Positions 1 to 11,128 of a DNA stretch of 11,128 nucleotides are shown piece after piece. Where the stretch lies: positions 1 to 11,128 of the forward strand of contig PUOI01000111.1 of assembly GCA_003552765.1 (NCBI GenBank), read 5' to 3'. The notes under the pieces were generated by a model. That model was not told where the DNA came from. It did not search any database and saw only the letters and a list, made by a program, of their open reading frames with translations. Both the position numbers and the translations under genes were made by a program. The stretch is from Candidatus Hydrogenedentota bacterium. GTDB taxonomy: Bacteria; Hydrogenedentota; Hydrogenedentia; Hydrogenedentales; SLHB01. How positions within the stretch are numbered: position 1 is the first letter of the stretch; every line of letters begins with the position of its first letter.

Positions 1-666
1 CGCCACGAGCATGTTGCGGAACGTGACATCCTGATTCTGGGGCCACTTGCCGATGCCGGTGATCCCGCCGCCCGCCGCGATGCCGCTGCCGATACCCGGC
101 CCGAGCGCCCCGGCTCCAATGGCGAGGCCCGCGCCCAGCACAATGCCGATGTGAATCACGTCGGTGCCCGGTTGTTGGGTGAACAGCAGCAACAAGGCGA
201 TGACCATGGCGAAGATGGTGGGCGATTGCGCCACCGCTTGGCCAATGACCATGCGCAGCGTGATGGGGGTTATCTTACGGGGATTGCGGGCAACCCCATC
301 GCAGGCCGTGGCCCCAGGCCAACCGCATCCAAGGCCGCTGCCAAAACTGCCCAGCCCTATGGCCAAGCCTGCGCCAATCATCGTTGCGACAAAGTTACCG
401 CCCACCATCTCGGGATCGGTGGCCGGCATGAACAGAATAAGGATCGCGATGACCAATGGGAACACGCTAACCGTGCCCCCGCCCACCGCCTGCCCAATCA
501 GCATGGTGCGAACCATGGCGTTGTTCTGCGTGGGCTGCCGCATCAGGCCTTCGTCGCCGCTCGCGGCCACCATGCCCATACCAATGCCCGCGCCAATACC
601 GCCTAGCCCCACGGCTATTCCGGCGCCGAAAATCCGGCCGATCGCTTCAAGTGTCTGAGGTTCCAC
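1..666 (-). CDS. atpE: F-type ATP synthase subunit c, multi-hairpin form (partial, continues past left edge)
   Basis: Rotor (c-ring) subunit of the Fo sector in the cytoplasmic membrane, carrying H+ or Na+ during ATP synthesis. The 222 visible codons form at least three helical hairpins: about residues 8-81, 90-163 and 171 to the edge. Each has a Gly-rich first helix (for example GIGAGIGMG and LGPGIGSG) and a polar loop (RQP at 43-45, RNP at 128-130, KWP at 207-209). Normal bacterial c subunits are one hairpin of about 80 residues, so this is a fused form. The second helices of hairpins 1 and 2 lack the expected carboxylate. In hairpin 2, IGQAVAQSP has Gln147 where families have Glu/Asp; in hairpin 1, IGQAVGGGT has Gly63 there. 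The third second-helix lies outside the window. The start is GTG at 666-664, with GGGA seven bases upstream and an in-frame TGA just before it. It follows atpB by 44 bases. Identity is firm; the stop is not seen. Confidence 0.93.
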   Translation of the reverse strand, partial: MEPQTLEAIGRIFGAGIAVGLGGIGAGIGMGMVAASGDEGLMRQPTQNNAMVRTMLIGQAVGGGTVSVFPLVIAILILFMPATDPEMVGGNFVATMIGAGLAIGLGSFGSGLGCGWPGATACDGVARNPRKITPITLRMVIGQAVAQSPTIFAMVIALLLLFTQQPGTDVIHIGIVLGAGLAIGAGALGPGIGSGIAAGGGITGIGKWPQNQDVTFRNMLVA

Positions 667-4102: not shown

Positions 4103-5815
4103 CTACCCGCGTACCTCCACGGCCAGCACGGACATGTCGTCCCCTTGCCGGCCGCCCTCCCGCCATTCGCGCGTGCGCTCAACCAGCTTGTTAACGCTTT
4201 CCTTGAGCGAAGAACCGGCGTGTTCCCTCAAGTGATGTAACATGCGCTCGACGCCGAAGAGTTCGCCTTGCGGGTTCATGGCTTCTTCCATGCCGTCGGA
4301 GTACAGATAGAGCCGATTACCGGGGTCGAGATTTATCTGCGTTTCCTCGAAACTCGCCCGCGGCGAGCCGAGACCAATCGGGAGATCCCCCGTGCCTTCA
4401 AGTGGTCTAGCCTCACCGTCCGCCACCAAGATGGGTGGGGGATGGCCCGCGCAGGCATAGTGGAAGGTCTGCTCCCGGCAATTGAGGACCCCGTACAGAA
4501 AAGTGAAGAACTGGCCCGTTTCAAGGTCCCAGCGGAACCGGCGGGACAAACGCATCGCGACTTTGCCTGGCGAGGCCACCCGGTAGACTTGGCCCGGCCC
4601 GCCCGAACGTTCAAACACCAGCGACGTGGCGCTGCGAATGGGCGTCAGCAAGTGGCTTACCGTCACACTGAGCATGGAGGAGGCCACCCCATGCCCCGTT
4701 ACGTCGAGGATATACATCCCCACATTTTCGTCGTCGAGGTGGATGACGTTGAGGATGTCGCCCGAGAGTTCCTCGCTGGCCTTCAGGCTCCAGGCGAACC
4801 GCAGGCACTCGATCTCGGGCAGGGCGGACGGGAGCAGGTTCCGTTGCACCTTGGCCGCCGCTTCCAGGTCCCGCTTCATGCGGTGATTGGCCTGGGTGAT
4901 TTTGGCGTTGGCCGCTTCGAGTTCTTCCGTGGCCTCTTGAAGCCTGCGCTCGGTTTCGATGAGATCCGAGATGTCGGACAGAATGGCGATGAAATGCGTG
5001 ACGGAGTCGGTTCGATCGTGGACGGGCGTGATGCTCAGCCGCGTCCACGTGGGGCCATCGTCGCCTCGCTGCTGCTGAAGCTCAAGGGTGGCCGGCATCC
5101 CCTTGCTCAGCTCTTCGCGCGCCCGGGCCGACTCCTCGTCTTCCACTGCGGAATCAAACAACACATCCAGGGGTTGGTCCAGCGCTTCGTCCCGGCTGTA
5201 GCCCATGAGCCGCTCAACCCCTTCGTTCACGTAGATGATGGGCTGCTCGTTCTGCAAGGCGTCCGCGATCACAATGCCATCACTCGCCGAATCCATGGCG
5301 TGGTTGTGCAGGCGCATCTTCTCCTCCGACCATTTCCGGAGGTTGATGTCCCGGAGGATGAGGTATCCCCACTCAAACTGGCCCGCTTCGTTGTTGACGG
5401 GCCGGGCCGACACGCTCACCCAAACTTCACGAATGCCTTCCCCGCTGAGGTGCATTTCCTGCCGCGTCACGGCTTCGCCCCGCAACGCGCGCATCAGGGG
5501 TAATTCGTCAAGGTTTCGCGAGAGGGACCCATCCGGAAGGCGGTAGCGGAAGCGGGTGCGCCATTCGCCGGGTTCGATGGATTCAATATCCTTGCCCAAC
5601 AGGGATCGCGCGGCGTTGTTGCAGTACAACACATGGCCCGGCTGATCCACCACGAGGAAGGCGTCGCCAATCGCGTCAAATACGCGTTGCGCCCCCCGCA
5701 ACTGCTCGAACAGTCCGGGATGGCTCTGCACCGGCGGCGTGGAAACATCGGCTCCCGCGCCTCCATTGCCATTGCCATGGTCGGGGGCGAGATGATATGT
5801 CGGCGTGTAACGCAC
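4103..5815 (-). CDS. PAS-PAS-coiled coil-PP2C (SpoIIE/RsbU-type) serine phosphatase
   Basis: Cytosolic regulatory phosphatase. Counting from GTG at 5815 (570 residues), a first PAS domain spans about 42-160 (FDAIGDAFLVVDQPGHVLYC) and a second about 170-285 (SASDGIVIAD... IIYVNEGVERLMGYS). A coiled-coil linker ends in KVQRNLLPS, the usual entry to this phosphatase class. The catalytic domain shows the metal-binding motifs in order: SGD at 351-353, DVTGHG at 371-376, SDGMEE at 506-511 and DDMS at 559-562, plus AGHPPPIL. It should therefore be active, dephosphorylating an anti-sigma-factor antagonist (STAS) protein in response to a PAS-sensed signal. No predicted transmembrane helix, and no STAS or RsbW-like partner nearby. 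The frame can be extended to a TTG at 5959, but that adds 48 Cys/Arg-rich residues of no family character and starts only about 9 bases from the predicted transcript start. GTG 5815 with an upstream GAGGA is preferred, though the spacing is long. Confidence 0.88.
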   Translation of the reverse strand: MRYTPTYHLAPDHGNGNGGAGADVSTPPVQSHPGLFEQLRGAQRVFDAIGDAFLVVDQPGHVLYCNNAARSLLGKDIESIEPGEWRTRFRYRLPDGSLSRNLDELPLMRALRGEAVTRQEMHLSGEGIREVWVSVSARPVNNEAGQFEWGYLILRDINLRKWSEEKMRLHNHAMDSASDGIVIADALQNEQPIIYVNEGVERLMGYSRDEALDQPLDVLFDSAVEDEESARAREELSKGMPATLELQQQRGDDGPTWTRLSITPVHDRTDSVTHFIAILSDISDLIETERRLQEATEELEAANAKITQANHRMKRDLEAAAKVQRNLLPSALPEIECLRFAWSLKASEELSGDILNVIHLDDENVGMYILDVTGHGVASSMLSVTVSHLLTPIRSATSLVFERSGGPGQVYRVASPGKVAMRLSRRFRWDLETGQFFTFLYGVLNCREQTFHYACAGHPPPILVADGEARPLEGTGDLPIGLGSPRASFEETQINLDPGNRLYLYSDGMEEAMNPQGELFGVERMLHHLREHAGSSLKESVNKLVERTREWREGGRQGDDMSVLAVEVRG

Positions 5816-5974
5816 TCGCGGTAATGTCCTCGGAATTCGGTATGGGGCAACCCAGCAGTGGCGCTGGCGCTTGTTACAGACGATATACGTGGGGACTCCG
5901 CCTTCAACGGCGCAGCCGCACGGAAACGTACAGGAAGGTGCGCCCACAGACGCGCGCAACTCAACACGTCCCGC

Positions 5975-6160: not shown

Positions 6161-7156
6161 ATGGCACGCAACAGTCTTCGATATATGCTTATTGTGGCGC
6201 TTGGCTTCGCCGCCGCCGGGTCATCCGCGGCTCAGAACCAAGGCCAAGTAGTGGATGCAATCCTAGCGACGGTGGGCGACGAGGTCATTCTTATGAGCGA
6301 GGTCCGGGCGGAGATCGCCCCCGCCTTGTTTGAATTGCGGCAAGAAGACCTGTCTACCGCGGAATTCGAGCAGAGGCGCGAGGAGCTGCTGGAGGAAGCG
6401 CTGAAACGGTCTGTCGAGAACTTGATCCTTGTGCGGGAAGCCCGGCGGCGGGGCATCGAAGTGCCCAGCCACGCCATTGAGGATCGCCTAGAGGAAGTGC
6501 AAGGACGGTATCCGTCCCGCGAAGCCTTTCTGGAGGATATTGAGCAGGCCGGGGAAACCTTAAGCGATATCCGCGCCCGTCTGCGGCGTCAAGTGCTTGC
6601 GCTAAACATGAGCATGCTGCAGCGGGAGCAATTTGAGCAGGCCGTCGTTGTCAGTGAGGATGAGGCCGCTCAATACTACGAAGACAATCAGGAGCATTTC
6701 CGGCGTCCGGGGCGCGTTCGGATGCGGCAGATCTTTCTGTCGGCCGAAGGAGAGGACGAACAGGCCGAGGCCCGCGAACAGGCCGAGGCGCTTCTTGCCG
6801 AAATCGAGGCGGGGGAGGCCTTTGAAGACTTGGCGCGCGAACACTCCGAAGCGCCGGGCGCGGCCGAGGGCGGACTGGTGGGCTGGCAGCAACGCGGCGA
6901 CCTCATCGAGCCCTTGGACTCGACCGCCTTTGAACTCGAAGAAGGGGAGATCAGCGAAGTCCTTGAAACGGATTTCGGCGTGCACATCCTAAAAGTGGAC
7001 GAGCGTGAGGAAGAGGGCCATGTGCCCTTCGGCGAGGTCCGCTCCCAAATCATCAACCACCTCCGCCAGCAAAAGGCCGACGAGCGTTACGACCGCTGGA
7101 TGGCCGATCAGCGCCGCCGCGCGGGTGTGCAGATGTTTGCCGATGGGGCGCTGTAA
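6161..7156 (+). CDS. SurA/PpiC-type periplasmic peptidyl-prolyl isomerase or chaperone
   Basis: 331 residues, predicted periplasmic. The N-terminus is a typical Sec signal peptide (hydrophobic 8-20, likely cleavage near SSAAQ at 21-25). Residues about 30-160 form a SurA-like helical chaperone domain, with VDAILATVGDEVILMSEV (31-48) as its conserved opening. A single parvulin domain follows at about 186-281, recognisable by EGGLVGW (236-242) and DFGVHILKV (271-279). The first catalytic His of active parvulins is replaced by Gln190 (VRMRQIFLS), so isomerase activity may be weak or absent and the holdase role dominant. E. coli SurA has two parvulin domains; one is common elsewhere. Outer-membrane protein folding is the likely job. 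The ATG has AGAGG ten bases upstream. It heads a plus-strand run of exported proteins. Confidence 0.9.
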   Translation: MARNSLRYMLIVALGFAAAGSSAAQNQGQVVDAILATVGDEVILMSEVRAEIAPALFELRQEDLSTAEFEQRREELLEEALKRSVENLILVREARRRGIEVPSHAIEDRLEEVQGRYPSREAFLEDIEQAGETLSDIRARLRRQVLALNMSMLQREQFEQAVVVSEDEAAQYYEDNQEHFRRPGRVRMRQIFLSAEGEDEQAEAREQAEALLAEIEAGEAFEDLAREHSEAPGAAEGGLVGWQQRGDLIEPLDSTAFELEEGEISEVLETDFGVHILKVDEREEEGHVPFGEVRSQIINHLRQQKADERYDRWMADQRRRAGVQMFADGAL

Positions 7157-7253: not shown

Positions 7254-7883
7254 ATGGATAGAATCAAACGCAGCGCGCCGGTGCTTGTGGCCTTCATGGC
7301 CGCCCTCCTCATCGGGGCGTGCGCCACTGGCCCCGGTCCTGTCCCATACGAGGCCTTCCGCAACGTTCGTGAAGCGGATCACCAACATCCCGGTGAATGG
7401 CGGATCGACGACAACCGCATGGTGAACGTCATCCCGGAAGAAGCGGCGTCCGATGCGGTGGCGGCTGGCCAGGAAGGCGCCAGCATAGCCTTGGTGGAGG
7501 ACTTCAGCGCCCGGGATTTGGTGGTGCAGGGGCGTCTGGGCTTTGAGGGGTATGCGGCTCCCGCTCTCGTGTTTCGGGTTCAGGAGGAGGATGGCGTGGT
7601 GGACGCCATGTACATGCTGGTGGTGAATACCGATGGCGTCTTCCTTTGGCGGCTGCTCGACGGCCATTGGACGGCGCTTGTCCGCCATTTCGTGCCGTTG
7701 CAGCCCGAGACAATGCATACGGTGCGGGCCGAGGCGCGCGGGGATACGATCGAGGTGGCGCTGGATGGAGAGGACTTGTTTGACGCGAATGATACGCTTC
7801 TCATGCAGCCCGGCGGGGCCGGCGTGAGCGCCCGCGAGGGCGTGTGCTATGTCGAGGATGTCGGGGTGGAGCGTCTGGATTAG
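7254..7883 (+). CDS. Lipoprotein with probable jelly-roll (LamG/DUF1080-like) domain
   Basis: 209 residues. The N-terminus MDRIKRSAPV followed by a hydrophobic run and a lipobox (LIGAC) predicts lipid attachment at Cys23. The mature part, about 75-209, alternates short beta-strands. Its pattern (GRLGFEGYAAPALVFRV, then YMLVVNTDGVFLWRL, W after a polar turn, VRAEARGDTIEVALDG, GGAGVSAREGVCYVEDVGV) resembles concanavalin-like jelly-rolls of the 3-keto-disaccharide hydrolase (DUF1080) type. Such domains often bind carbohydrate. No catalytic residues can be named, so a binding or structural role is as likely as an enzymatic one. The ATG has only a distant purine stretch upstream. The stop is 11 bases before the next gene, so the two are probably cotranscribed. 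Confidence 0.75.
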   Translation: MDRIKRSAPVLVAFMAALLIGACATGPGPVPYEAFRNVREADHQHPGEWRIDDNRMVNVIPEEAASDAVAAGQEGASIALVEDFSARDLVVQGRLGFEGYAAPALVFRVQEEDGVVDAMYMLVVNTDGVFLWRLLDGHWTALVRHFVPLQPETMHTVRAEARGDTIEVALDGEDLFDANDTLLMQPGGAGVSAREGVCYVEDVGVERLD

Positions 7884-7888
7884 GGAGG
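7884..7888 (+). promoter_or_regulatory. Ribosome binding site that sets a TTG start
   Basis: GGAGG directly after the stop of the lipoprotein gene, 6 bases before TTG 7895 and 9 bases before TTG 7898. An upstream in-frame ATG at 7844 would overlap the previous gene by 40 bases and add Cys/Gly-rich residues ahead of the signal peptide, so a TTG start is preferred. Confidence 0.6.
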
Positions 7889-7894
7889 TTCTGT

Positions 7895-9940
7895 TTGTTG
7901 GCGGGCTATTCTTCCTTGCGGAGCTTGGCGATTCTGGCCGCGCTTTTGTGCGCGGGGATGTGGGTTTTTCCGGCGGCGGCGGCCACATTCGAGGGCGTGG
8001 TGGTTGGACCTGATGGCGAGCCGGTGGAAGACGCGCAGGTATTCATTGAGCCTGGTGTCGAGCATTCTCTCCGGCAAACCGAAACGGATGCAAGCGGGCG
8101 TTTCGTCTTTGAAGATGTTCCTGGCGGGCGCATCGGCCTTTTCGCCGTGGCGGATGACGCCTCCTTTGGCGGCAAAACGGTGACGGCCTTGCCGGGCGCG
8201 GAAGAGGCTGGGCTGCGAGTGCGTCTGGCTGAACCCGCGACGGTGCAAGGCCGGGTTCGCGATGCGGATGGCGCCGTTGTGTCCGAGGCGCGCATCACGC
8301 GGGTGGCGCTGTTGCAGGAGGACAAGGTTGGCATCCCCTTGGCCAAATTGCGCGCATTCGGCTTTTCTGAGCCCGCCTCGGACGGCGAGGGCCGTTTCCA
8401 GCTCCCGAACATGCCCGAAGGGGTGGAGCTGGCGTTGAAGGTTGGGCACCCCAGTTACGCACAAACGAGCGTTATGGATGTGCACGCGGGCATGCAGCCT
8501 GTTGAAGTGCGTCTTCAGCGGGGCGTTTTGGTTCAAGGCGAGGTGGTGACACGGGGAGATGAGCGGCCCGTGGCGAACGCGCTGGTGCGATTCGCCAGCG
8601 CCGAGCCCCCGCATGACACGGCGTTGGCGCAGACGAATTATCAGGGCGGATTCGCCGTGCGCCTCAACCCGGGCGGCTACGTGTTCCGGGCTGATGGCGA
8701 GGCCTACGCAAGCCCCAGCTGGCAGCAAGTGCTCCTGCCGGATGACCGCTCCCAAATTCAAGTTAAGCTCCAGGTGGCCGGCAAGGGACGCATCGAGGGC
8801 GCGGTTCGCGATGCGCGCACCGAATCCCCTGTCGCGGGCGTCCGCTTGATCCTGGAAAGCGGCGGCCAACAAGCCGAGGCCGTGCGCACGGGCAGCGATG
8901 GGACTTTCCAAATCGCGGCGGTCGAGGGCGAGAATGTGTTGCGCCTGGACCAAGCGCCGGGCTATCTGCAACCCTCCACATCCGCCTACCGGGTGAACGT
9001 CCGGGAAAACGATACCACCGAACTTCCCACTTTTTGGCTGGCGCCCCTCCCGGACTATCGCGTCACCGTCGTTGATGACAATGAAGAGCGCGTGCCCGAG
9101 GCGGTGATCACGATGGCGCGTCCAGCCCAATTGGGGTGGCATATCGCGGATGAATCGGGGGTGGTGAATCTGGAATTCTCCCAGCTTTCCCAAGGTGTTC
9201 CCATTGGCGTTGCGTATCACCCCACGCGGCCTCTCGGGGCTTTGTTCACCTTGCACGAAAGACAGGAGGAGGCGCTTATTCAGCTTTCTCCATTGCGGGA
9301 AATCCGGGGCGAGGTGGTGAACGCCCAAGGGCGGGGCCTGGAAGGTCTGGTAACCGGCGTGGCGTATACGGCGGGCGAAGATGAGGGGCAGCCCGTGCTG
9401 CTCGGCCAAACAGTGAGCGGAACCGATGGCGGCGCCGTGTTTCCGGGAACGCCCGAGGGCGCGGCGCTGTCTCTCCTTGCTCAAGACGCCGAGGGCCAGT
9501 TTGGCCGTTCGGACGCATTCCGGAGCGGTGAGGTTTCCGGCGCCGTCGAAGTGCGGGTGGAGGAAGGCCGGGAGGGCGTGTCGGTGATAGGGGAGACGTT
9601 CGCCCTGGAGGACATGCCGCCTCTGAACGAGGCCGCCCGGGAGATGAGCGATTTTGCGGGACCATGGGTGGCCGTGTTTGCTGAACCGGCGGAGGCCGCG
9701 ATGCTTGCCGAAAGCCTTGCCCGGCTGCGCGAGGTCTACAGTGGGCATGAGGTGCGGTTTGTTCTTGTCGCGCCGGATGAACACGGGTGGCCAGAAGAAG
9801 GGTATGCCGGTCCCGTATTCGAGGGGGAGGCCCCGGGGACCGCGTCGGCCTATCTTGTGGATGGGGAAGGGACCGTGGTGTACGAGACCTTGGGGCTTCC
9901 TAGCCCGCCCGCCATCCAGCGGTTGTTGGAGGCTGATTGA
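7895..9940 (+). CDS. Secreted carboxypeptidase-regulatory-like repeat protein with degenerate thioredoxin-like C-terminus
   Basis: 681 residues from TTG 7895 (TTG 7898 also possible). A signal peptide covers about 1-30 (LAILAALLCAGMWVFPAAAA). Residues about 32-555 form roughly six tandem beta-sandwich modules of the carboxypeptidase regulatory-like type, starting near 32, 115, 210, 298, 388 and 468. Each opens like GxVxxxDGxPVxxAxV and several contain a TDASGRFVFEDVP-type turn. The last part, 562-681, reads like a TlpA/AhpC thioredoxin fold. It has IGETFALEDM at the start, WVAVFAEPAEAAML where the CxxC should be, VRFVLVAPDE, and a late SAYLVDGEGTVVYETLG strand pair. With no cysteines it cannot do disulfide chemistry. 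Function is unknown; adhesion, scaffolding or ligand binding in the periplasm or outside are possible. A paralogue follows 56 bases downstream. Confidence 0.8.
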   Translation: MLAGYSSLRSLAILAALLCAGMWVFPAAAATFEGVVVGPDGEPVEDAQVFIEPGVEHSLRQTETDASGRFVFEDVPGGRIGLFAVADDASFGGKTVTALPGAEEAGLRVRLAEPATVQGRVRDADGAVVSEARITRVALLQEDKVGIPLAKLRAFGFSEPASDGEGRFQLPNMPEGVELALKVGHPSYAQTSVMDVHAGMQPVEVRLQRGVLVQGEVVTRGDERPVANALVRFASAEPPHDTALAQTNYQGGFAVRLNPGGYVFRADGEAYASPSWQQVLLPDDRSQIQVKLQVAGKGRIEGAVRDARTESPVAGVRLILESGGQQAEAVRTGSDGTFQIAAVEGENVLRLDQAPGYLQPSTSAYRVNVRENDTTELPTFWLAPLPDYRVTVVDDNEERVPEAVITMARPAQLGWHIADESGVVNLEFSQLSQGVPIGVAYHPTRPLGALFTLHERQEEALIQLSPLREIRGEVVNAQGRGLEGLVTGVAYTAGEDEGQPVLLGQTVSGTDGGAVFPGTPEGAALSLLAQDAEGQFGRSDAFRSGEVSGAVEVRVEEGREGVSVIGETFALEDMPPLNEAAREMSDFAGPWVAVFAEPAEAAMLAESLARLREVYSGHEVRFVLVAPDEHGWPEEGYAGPVFEGEAPGTASAYLVDGEGTVVYETLGLPSPPAIQRLLEAD

Positions 9941-9996
9941 GCGGAACGGCATTCTTTCACGTGCACACCAAGCGAATAGGAGATGTCTGCGAGTTT

Positions 9997-11128
9997 ATGC
10001 GTGTTTCGTTTGTGCTGGCGATAGTTGTCTGGGCTTTCTTGCTGGTTGCGCCCGCCTCGGGAGAAGGATTCGAGGTATCCGGCGTGGTGATGAATTACAC
10101 CCGCCAACCGGTGGACGGGGCTTCCGTGTGGCTGGCCCAAGACCGGCGGGTGGACCGGGTGGAAACCGATTCCGAGGGGAGATTCCGCTTCGATGGGGCA
10201 ACGGTCGGTCCCGCCTCGGTGGTGGCGCTGAAAGAGGGGTACGCCATGGGCGGGGCGGACATCCGCGTGGCGGACTCCGTCGAGATCGATGTGATGCTCC
10301 CTCCAGAAGACGACATTACCGTTCGGGTCACCAACCCTCAGCATAGACCCCTGTCCGGGGCTTACGTGAAAAGCCTGTATATCGGCGATGCGTTCACCGT
10401 GCCGGTCGAGGAACTCAACCGCGAAGGCTTTCCCCGCATGCGAAGTGACGATGAGGGCTTCCTCACGATTCCGCATCTGCCCCAACAGAGCCATATAGCG
10501 GGTTTCCTTTATCACCGGGACTACGCCGAGAGCCATGTCGCCTATCTGCCGGTGGGGCGAATCGAGGATCAGGACATCCTTCTCTATCCCGGTGTTACGC
10601 TTGAAGGCCGGGTGACCGGACCGGACCACGATGGCGTGAGTGGGGCGCGGGTGAAGCTGTTTCGCGTGGGTGCGGGAGGCCGGCGCGAATTCGCCAGCCA
10701 GGTCACGGATCCCGAGGGCTTTTACCGGTTGAATGCCCGGCCGGGCGAGTATCATCTTACCGCTGATCATCCGGAGTTTGGCGCGCCGAAACCCGTGGAA
10801 GTGGCGCTTCGGCCCGGTGATGAGCAGAGCGCGCGCAATATCGAATTGCAGTCCGCCCGTTATATCACGGGCGCCGTGGTGGATCCCGATGGCGAGCCCA
10901 TGGCGGGCGTCGACGTCGTCTTTCTGTGTGAAGAAGGAACCTTGCAGGCTCATACTTGGACCGCCGCCAACGGACAGTATCGGCTTCAGGTTGGCGTTGA
11001 GGAAGGGGCCGTACGGGTGTTTCCTCCCGATGGGTACATCACGGAGGCCTTCTCCGACGTGCTTGTTCAGTTTGACGGCGCGGAACGAATCAACTTGGAG
11101 CCGATTGAACTCGACACATTGCCCGAGA
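9997..11128 (+). CDS. Secreted carboxypeptidase-regulatory-like repeat protein (partial, runs off right edge)
   Basis: 377 codons visible with no stop. The ATG at 9997 is followed by a clean signal peptide (VSFVLAIVVWAFLLVAPASG, 3-22). Four tandem beta-sandwich modules can be seen, at about 26-101, 107-198, 201-284 and 288-370. They share openings such as VSGVVMNYTRQPVDGASVW, LEGRVTGPDHDGVSGARV and ITGAVVDPDGEPMAGVDVV, and turns such as TDSEGRFRF and TDPEGFYRL. It is related to the preceding gene in layout and probably arose by duplication; a C-terminal domain may lie beyond the edge. AGGAG (9978-9982) is the likely ribosome site, but its 14-base spacing is long. Another ATG at 9983 is in a different frame and stops after 13 codons. 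Function unknown. Confidence 0.8.
   Translation, partial: MRVSFVLAIVVWAFLLVAPASGEGFEVSGVVMNYTRQPVDGASVWLAQDRRVDRVETDSEGRFRFDGATVGPASVVALKEGYAMGGADIRVADSVEIDVMLPPEDDITVRVTNPQHRPLSGAYVKSLYIGDAFTVPVEELNREGFPRMRSDDEGFLTIPHLPQQSHIAGFLYHRDYAESHVAYLPVGRIEDQDILLYPGVTLEGRVTGPDHDGVSGARVKLFRVGAGGRREFASQVTDPEGFYRLNARPGEYHLTADHPEFGAPKPVEVALRPGDEQSARNIELQSARYITGAVVDPDGEPMAGVDVVFLCEEGTLQAHTWTAANGQYRLQVGVEEGAVRVFPPDGYITEAFSDVLVQFDGAERINLEPIELDTLPE

Follow-up and report, generated by a model that had tools for sequence, protein, structure and literature searches.

A conserved four-hairpin c-type subunit with few or no ion sites precedes the ordinary c subunit in F-type ATP synthase operons of Hydrogenedentota

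Can the rotor of an F-type ATP synthase include a segment that binds no ions? The question is raised by a stretch of 11,128 nucleotides from Candidatus Hydrogenedentota bacterium (GenBank assembly GCA_003552765.1, contig PUOI01000111.1), hereafter the window, which is the entire contig C624 of a 3.29 Mb assembly with 640 contigs and 83% completeness. At the left end of the window, on the minus strand (positions 666 to 1), an open frame with a GTG start encodes 222 residues of a c-type rotor subunit and exits at the contig end. Complete homologues have four hairpins, and we refer to the subunit as c4. We consider it fairly likely that the window holds the start of the first of two atpE genes for a mixed ring, in which c4 and ordinary c subunits stand side by side, and that the synthase is F-type and probably coupled to Na+.

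Three PF00137 stretches are found in the translated window part of c4. AlphaFold2 helices of a sister copy (residues 3–43 and 45–79 for the first hairpin) place hairpin 1 at residues 3–79 (positions 430–660), hairpin 2 at residues 90–162 (181–399) and hairpin 3 at residues 170–222 (1–159), all on the minus strand; the third ends just before its ion-site position, defined here as that of the essential helix-2 glutamate (Glu65 in Ilyobacter). This position is occupied by Gly63 in hairpin 1 (codon GGG, 478–480) and by Gln147 in hairpin 2 (codon CAA, 226–228). A preliminary description of the sequence had reported at least three hairpins in one frame with these two residues at the ion sites, and the translation bears it out. 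The three hairpins that it saw are real, and its count is one short, as the complete homologue at locus L037 has four PF00137 stretches. A base error at either codon, a concern it had raised, is very unlikely, because both codons are identical in the sister genome G001 though 33 of the 666 bases differ.

The complete c4 of G001 (same genus, SKRY01000041.1; loci L034/L004) is a protein of 324 residues with four c-type hairpins and is 99% identical to the window part. Its ion-site residues are Gly63, Gln147, Gln227 and Gln307, the third of which is read from this sister copy only. The preliminary description had allowed for a carboxylate in hairpin three or later; the sister c4 has none in any hairpin. 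We counted the site residues by motif in the best 120 of 749 protein-search matches (315–333 residues, sister copy included); the window's clade carries a one-residue insertion that affects the hairpin-1 column. Hairpin 1 has G in 102, S in 16, E in 1 and A in 1, hairpin 2 has Q in 120/120, hairpin 3 has Q in 66, E in 48, D in 4 and G in 2, and hairpin 4 has Q in 119 and E in 1. No carboxylate is found in 68 of these homologues, one in 50, always in hairpin 3, and two in 2. The expectation that the first two hairpins are silent and conserved as such in relatives is therefore upheld. Exceptions to the silent pattern carry Glu also at hairpin 1 (P0090, and the genome copy of G053 at locus L045) or at hairpin 4 (P0072), and none has it at site 2. 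Of the 16 c4 genes in genomes that do not run off a contig, eight have zero carboxylates (G001, G002, G012, G015, G019, G023, G058, G059), seven have one (G007, G030, G037, G045, G047, G050, G052) and one has two (G053). With carboxylates at 0/2 visible sites in the window, at 0/4 sites in the sister copy and at none in 68 of 120 homologues, c4 is a rotor-subunit homologue and not an ion-carrying c. Hidden carboxylates elsewhere in the membrane helices were rejected by a scan of eight helix stretches, chosen by us, in the 120 homologues. Besides position 65 of hairpin 3, extra acids were found as an Asp one residue past the hairpin 1 site (6/120), a Glu two residues past position 32 of hairpin 3 (2/120) and single cases at four further places, two of them being the Glu residues at sites 1 and 4.

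The ion carrier of these operons is encoded next door. Of 68 Hydrogenedentota genomes, 21 encode c4, counting copies truncated where a contig ends; they belong to six family groups (f1, f4, f5, f7, f10 and f11). A single-hairpin c lies directly behind c4 in all 19 relatives with a readable 3' side, which falls outside the window. In the sister contig (L034), this ordinary c, with Glu65 and the full set of Na+ ligands, is found 61 bp downstream of c4; atpB precedes the two, and b, b', delta and the first part of alpha come after them. The Na+ motif Q/E32, V63, E65, S/T66, T67, Y70 is present in 21/21 ordinary c sequences, including those of G006 and G017, whose contigs begin just before c. Position 32 is Gln in 6 of the 21 (Ilyobacter type) and Glu in 15 (two-carboxylate Fusobacterium type). 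The preliminary description had considered a ring with a single ion site for every three or more hairpins, as the fused subunit would form by itself; such a homomeric ring is rejected, as an ordinary c with Glu65 follows c4. A second, ordinary atpE was not found in the window's own genome, where the three PF00137 matches of the 83% complete assembly are all on C624. The assembly breaks inside c4 and the F1 genes alpha, gamma, beta and epsilon resume on contig C103, so the gap between C624 and C103 most likely contains the ordinary c.

A scan of genome contigs with a single sequence as query gave one locus. Organism names stand on 4 of the 120 listed homologues, three being Hydrogenedentota or Hydrogenedens and one 'bacterium'. 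In PMC11406978, a genome survey of the phylum, FoF1 is given for 61% and the V/A-type enzyme for 71% of the phylum's genomes, and its main text does not use the term 'c subunit'. A search for RnfC gave strong matches in genomes both with and without c4. Genome G023 has a second locus with its own subunit a in addition to its c4 F-type operon (loci L046, L071), and the c of this second locus is presumably N-ATPase-like.

Does c4 enter the same ring as c? The position-32 ligand is replaced hairpin by hairpin, by M in hairpin 1 (120/120), C in hairpin 2 (119/120), S in hairpin 3 (116/120) and S/C in hairpin 4 (116/120). Only hairpin 4 retains T67 and Y70 alongside V63 and S66. An adjacent c would depend on these ligands, an argument for placing c4 in the ring of c. 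Helix 1 is glycine-rich in all four hairpins, and in the fold comparison two c4 hairpins superpose on a true ring subunit at 1.2 Å.

The arrangement has known relatives. The Na+ F1Fo F/V-hybrid rotor of Acetobacterium woodii (PDB entry 4bem: one c1 chain, nine c2 chains) is the best PDB sequence match for both c4 and the ordinary c, and ranks first by Z in the fold comparison, in line with the likeness to Acetobacterium c1 proposed in the preliminary description. It likewise combines a multi-hairpin and an ordinary c in one F-type enzyme, and in the alignment its silent hairpin has Gln in place of Glu and keeps T66, T67 and Y70. The two differ in that c1 is built of two hairpins, the first of which holds its only carboxylate; among the four hairpins of c4, either none holds one or the third does. 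The A. woodii ring has 10 sites (PMC7793690) in 11 hairpins (from the chain counts of 4bem), giving 3.3 Na+ per ATP (PMC7793690, PMC5662883). Clostridium aceticum follows the same plan, as described in PMC7911925, with a double-hairpin c1 (atpE1) carrying a silent Q....QT hairpin, an ordinary c2 (atpE2) and a reported Na+-dependent ATPase; its c1 differs from c4 in having two hairpins, one of them active, and it belongs to another phylum. The ordinary c of most c4 operons, with Glu32 and Glu65, S66, T67 and Y70, also resembles the two-carboxylate c of Fusobacterium nucleatum, whose ring is described as a c11 of one subunit, with no fused subunit (PMC3692424). V/A-type K/c subunits, such as Enterococcus hirae NtpK, the triple of Methanocaldococcus jannaschii and the 13 hairpins of Methanopyrus kandleri, are also fused, often with ligands lost in some hairpins (PMC2359735). 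These belong to V/A-type operons, whereas c4 adjoins F-type genes for a, b, delta and alpha.

The features of an F/V-hybrid rotor recur here as one multi-hairpin and one single-hairpin c gene per F operon (19/19), Gln in the silent hairpins (120/120 in hairpin 2, 119/120 in hairpin 4, with Gly/Ser instead in hairpin 1) and the Na+ motif in the single-hairpin c (21/21). A two-hairpin c with one site is not among them; its place is taken by four hairpins with 0 sites in 68, 1 in 50 and 2 in 2 of the 120 homologues. The c4 system may be regarded as a more extreme variant, in another phylum, of the F/V-hybrid rotor of acetogens, assuming that c4 does join the ring. We do not call it categorically new, because the plan is the same. 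The difference is that four hairpins, carrying one site or none, stand in place of a two-hairpin, one-site c1.

How might such a ring work? We infer that several ordinary c subunits and few copies of c4, probably one, close a single ring, in which c4 would be a minor silent segment that reduces the ions carried per turn. The carboxylates of c4 are replaced by Gln in hairpins 2 and 4, by Gly/Ser in hairpin 1 and by Gln in hairpin 3 of about half of the homologues. Gln would act as a permanently neutral stand-in for a loaded carboxylate, and silent hairpins could for that reason move through the lipid and past subunit a with no ion bound. The site of the adjoining ordinary c would be completed by hairpin 4, which keeps the trans half of a site for Na+. 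Each turn would make three ATP for 3 or 4 fewer ions than there are hairpins; one c4 with n copies of c would carry n ions per turn, or n+1 if hairpin 3 has Glu. In an assumed 11-hairpin ring, the size found in A. woodii and F. nucleatum, this would correspond to 7 or 8 ions, or 2.3–2.7 per ATP, against 3.3 in A. woodii. With c4, each ATP would in this way probably cost fewer ions. When an enzyme with a low ratio runs in reverse, ATP pumps ions against a steeper gradient, and the present enzyme might run either way. Lowering the ratio increases the ATP gained from each ion, while a given ion gradient then sustains only a lower phosphorylation potential (PMC5662883). The hard step would be the site-less arc, as four hairpins of 11 would span about 130 degrees. 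One silent hairpin is tolerated by A. woodii and C. aceticum, according to PMC7911925. For the longer arc, the stalk might store enough energy, subunit a might be adapted, or c4 might serve as a brake.

A further idea, which we put forward tentatively and hold to be doubtful, is that the ratio of c4 to c works as a gear. The ordinary c could close a ring alone, and one c4 would insert an arc that carries no ions and spans roughly a third of the circle, leaving one of the three catalytic steps unmatched by ion transport. The ion/ATP ratio would then fall to about (N-4)/3 for N hairpins, for example 2.3 at 11 hairpins. Evolution could retune this ratio by switching hairpin 3 between Glu/Asp and Gln/Gly, and cells could do so through the expression of c4. 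At least 10 such hairpin 3 changes are counted on a quick tree of the 120 homologues.

Several observations could speak for other roles of c4. Sixteen other genomes of the phylum have an F-type subunit a and an adjoining c without c4 (c sequences from 15; the N-ATPase-like operons of G020 and G023 are left out of the count), and in these relatives c presumably closes the ring alone. The expected translation of c4 is low. Its start codons differ from those of c with p 1.7e-9, a value that is overstated since the rows are related, and the Shine-Dalgarno medians differ little (-5.0 against -5.9 kcal/mol). This comparison covers 16 of 18 c4 genes, leaving out G052, whose start falls on masked bases, and G028, which could begin at TTG or ATG; for G037, G047, G058 and G059, which have an additional ATG 8–10 codons inward in a conserved stretch, the upstream start was taken, and starts of the ordinary c were picked by homology, at times inside a longer open reading frame. 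In the PS3 ring, a single Glu-to-Gln exchange (E56Q) blocks ATP synthesis (PMC8809890). Finally, 10 of the 21 c4 genomes have a V_ATPase_I match, so another enzyme could make ATP there.

The c4-less operons and the low translation would suit an assembly scaffold or a stator-side membrane subunit, that is, a helper that templates the closure or size of the ring, or seals it, and is absent from the finished turning ring. We regard this as rather unlikely, as the glycine-rich helix 1 is retained in every hairpin, two hairpins match a true ring subunit closely, and the trans Na+ ligands of hairpin 4 matter only if a c follows in the ring. The E56Q block and the second enzyme would suit a brake, in which a ring with c4 is blocked or driven by ATP only, making c4 a regulator or the enzyme a one-way Na+ pump. 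This seems improbable to us, since 11 of the 21 c4 genomes have no V_ATPase_I match and c4 sits between atpB and c in the loci read, not apart from them. Three of these genomes (G012, G030 and G058, each at least 90% complete) have a single subunit a, with further PF00006 matches present, and a brake on the sole rotary enzyme is less likely for this reason. That c4 is a decaying gene or an assembly artefact, its fused c copies having lost their function, might be suggested by the missing carboxylates, the contig end within the gene and the fragmented assembly, and can be dismissed as the same gene occurs in 21 genomes, the 120 homologues listed are all 315–333 residues long with Gln at site 2 in every one, and the gene has 31 synonymous against 2 nonsynonymous differences between the window genome (G000) and G001.

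Of the 33 differences in this last pair, 30 are at third positions, and the ratio of nonsynonymous to synonymous substitution rates (dN/dS) is 0.020. The c4 genes of G058 and G059 give 0.012; among more distant pairs, four give 0.11–0.18 and a fifth is saturated. c4 is under selection. The preliminary description had named a second canonical operon as a sign of decay; only one copy of subunit a was found in the window's own genome, and the low dN/dS of the close pairs speaks for a maintained gene. V_ATPase_I has no match in this 83% complete assembly.

The history of c4 can be followed in part. In a tree of single hairpins (73 columns, deeper forks unresolved), built from 15 of the 16 uncut c4 copies (without G052) and 16 of 17 c rows from c4-less genomes (without G010), hairpins 1, 2, 3 and 4 are each separated by one branch, with support of 99, 100, 99 and 87. 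They stand apart from the ordinary c rows, whose group has a support of only 24. As each hairpin type groups by itself, c4 most likely stems from one old fusion, each hairpin having kept its own character since. In the atpB tree, from which G046 is absent, 14 main F-type rows without c4 group as a single clade inside the 19 c4 rows. This nesting would suggest a single loss of c4, but a single clade of c4 rows is not rejected (approximately unbiased test, AU p 0.297), so that c4 may have been either gained or lost. Just ahead of its conserved Arg, subunit a has Phe in 19/19 c4 rows and Cys in 12/14 of the c4-less clade, a contrast that may reflect shared descent.

Our literature search, in sources other than the Brandt and Mueller 2015 hybrid-rotor survey and the supplements of PMC11406978, returned no earlier description of a four-hairpin c in Hydrogenedentota. 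In textbook Fo mechanisms, each c that comes to face subunit a has to bear a carboxylate. If c4 is in the ring, a strongly conserved segment of up to four adjacent site-less hairpins would probe how a rotor turns across an ion-free stretch, whether stored elastic energy is enough for a third of a turn, and what the lowest ion/ATP ratio is at which a synthase can work. The natural series of c4 with 0, 1 or rarely 2 carboxylates, together with the c4-less sister operons, allows such ratios to be compared within one phylum.

Upstream of c4, the minus strand of the window encodes subunit a (atpB, 711–1445, PF00119), with its conserved Arg in the motif SISFRLFGN, atpI (1450–1839, PF03899) and atpZ (ATPase_gene1, 1995–2402). 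PF09527 covers residues 76–127 of the latter, and its true start is probably downstream of the start of the open reading frame. The order towards the left end is atpZ, atpI, atpB, c4, which agrees with the plain F-type operon of the preliminary description. A V/A-type origin of the operon was rejected, as the neighbours in the window and on C103 are F-type. G007 is listed at 100% completeness and has a V_ATPase_I match as well; its F-type alpha is read as two overlapping frames of 306 and 180 residues (L037, 10043–11502), owing either to a sequencing error in one base or to a gene that is truly broken. The other end of the window (7844–11127, plus strand) encodes two large adjoining proteins of 698 and at least 397 residues with repeated carboxypeptidase-regulatory-like domains, beside which lie a SurA-like peptidyl-prolyl isomerase (6161–7156) and a PAS-SpoIIE phosphatase (4103–5959, minus strand).
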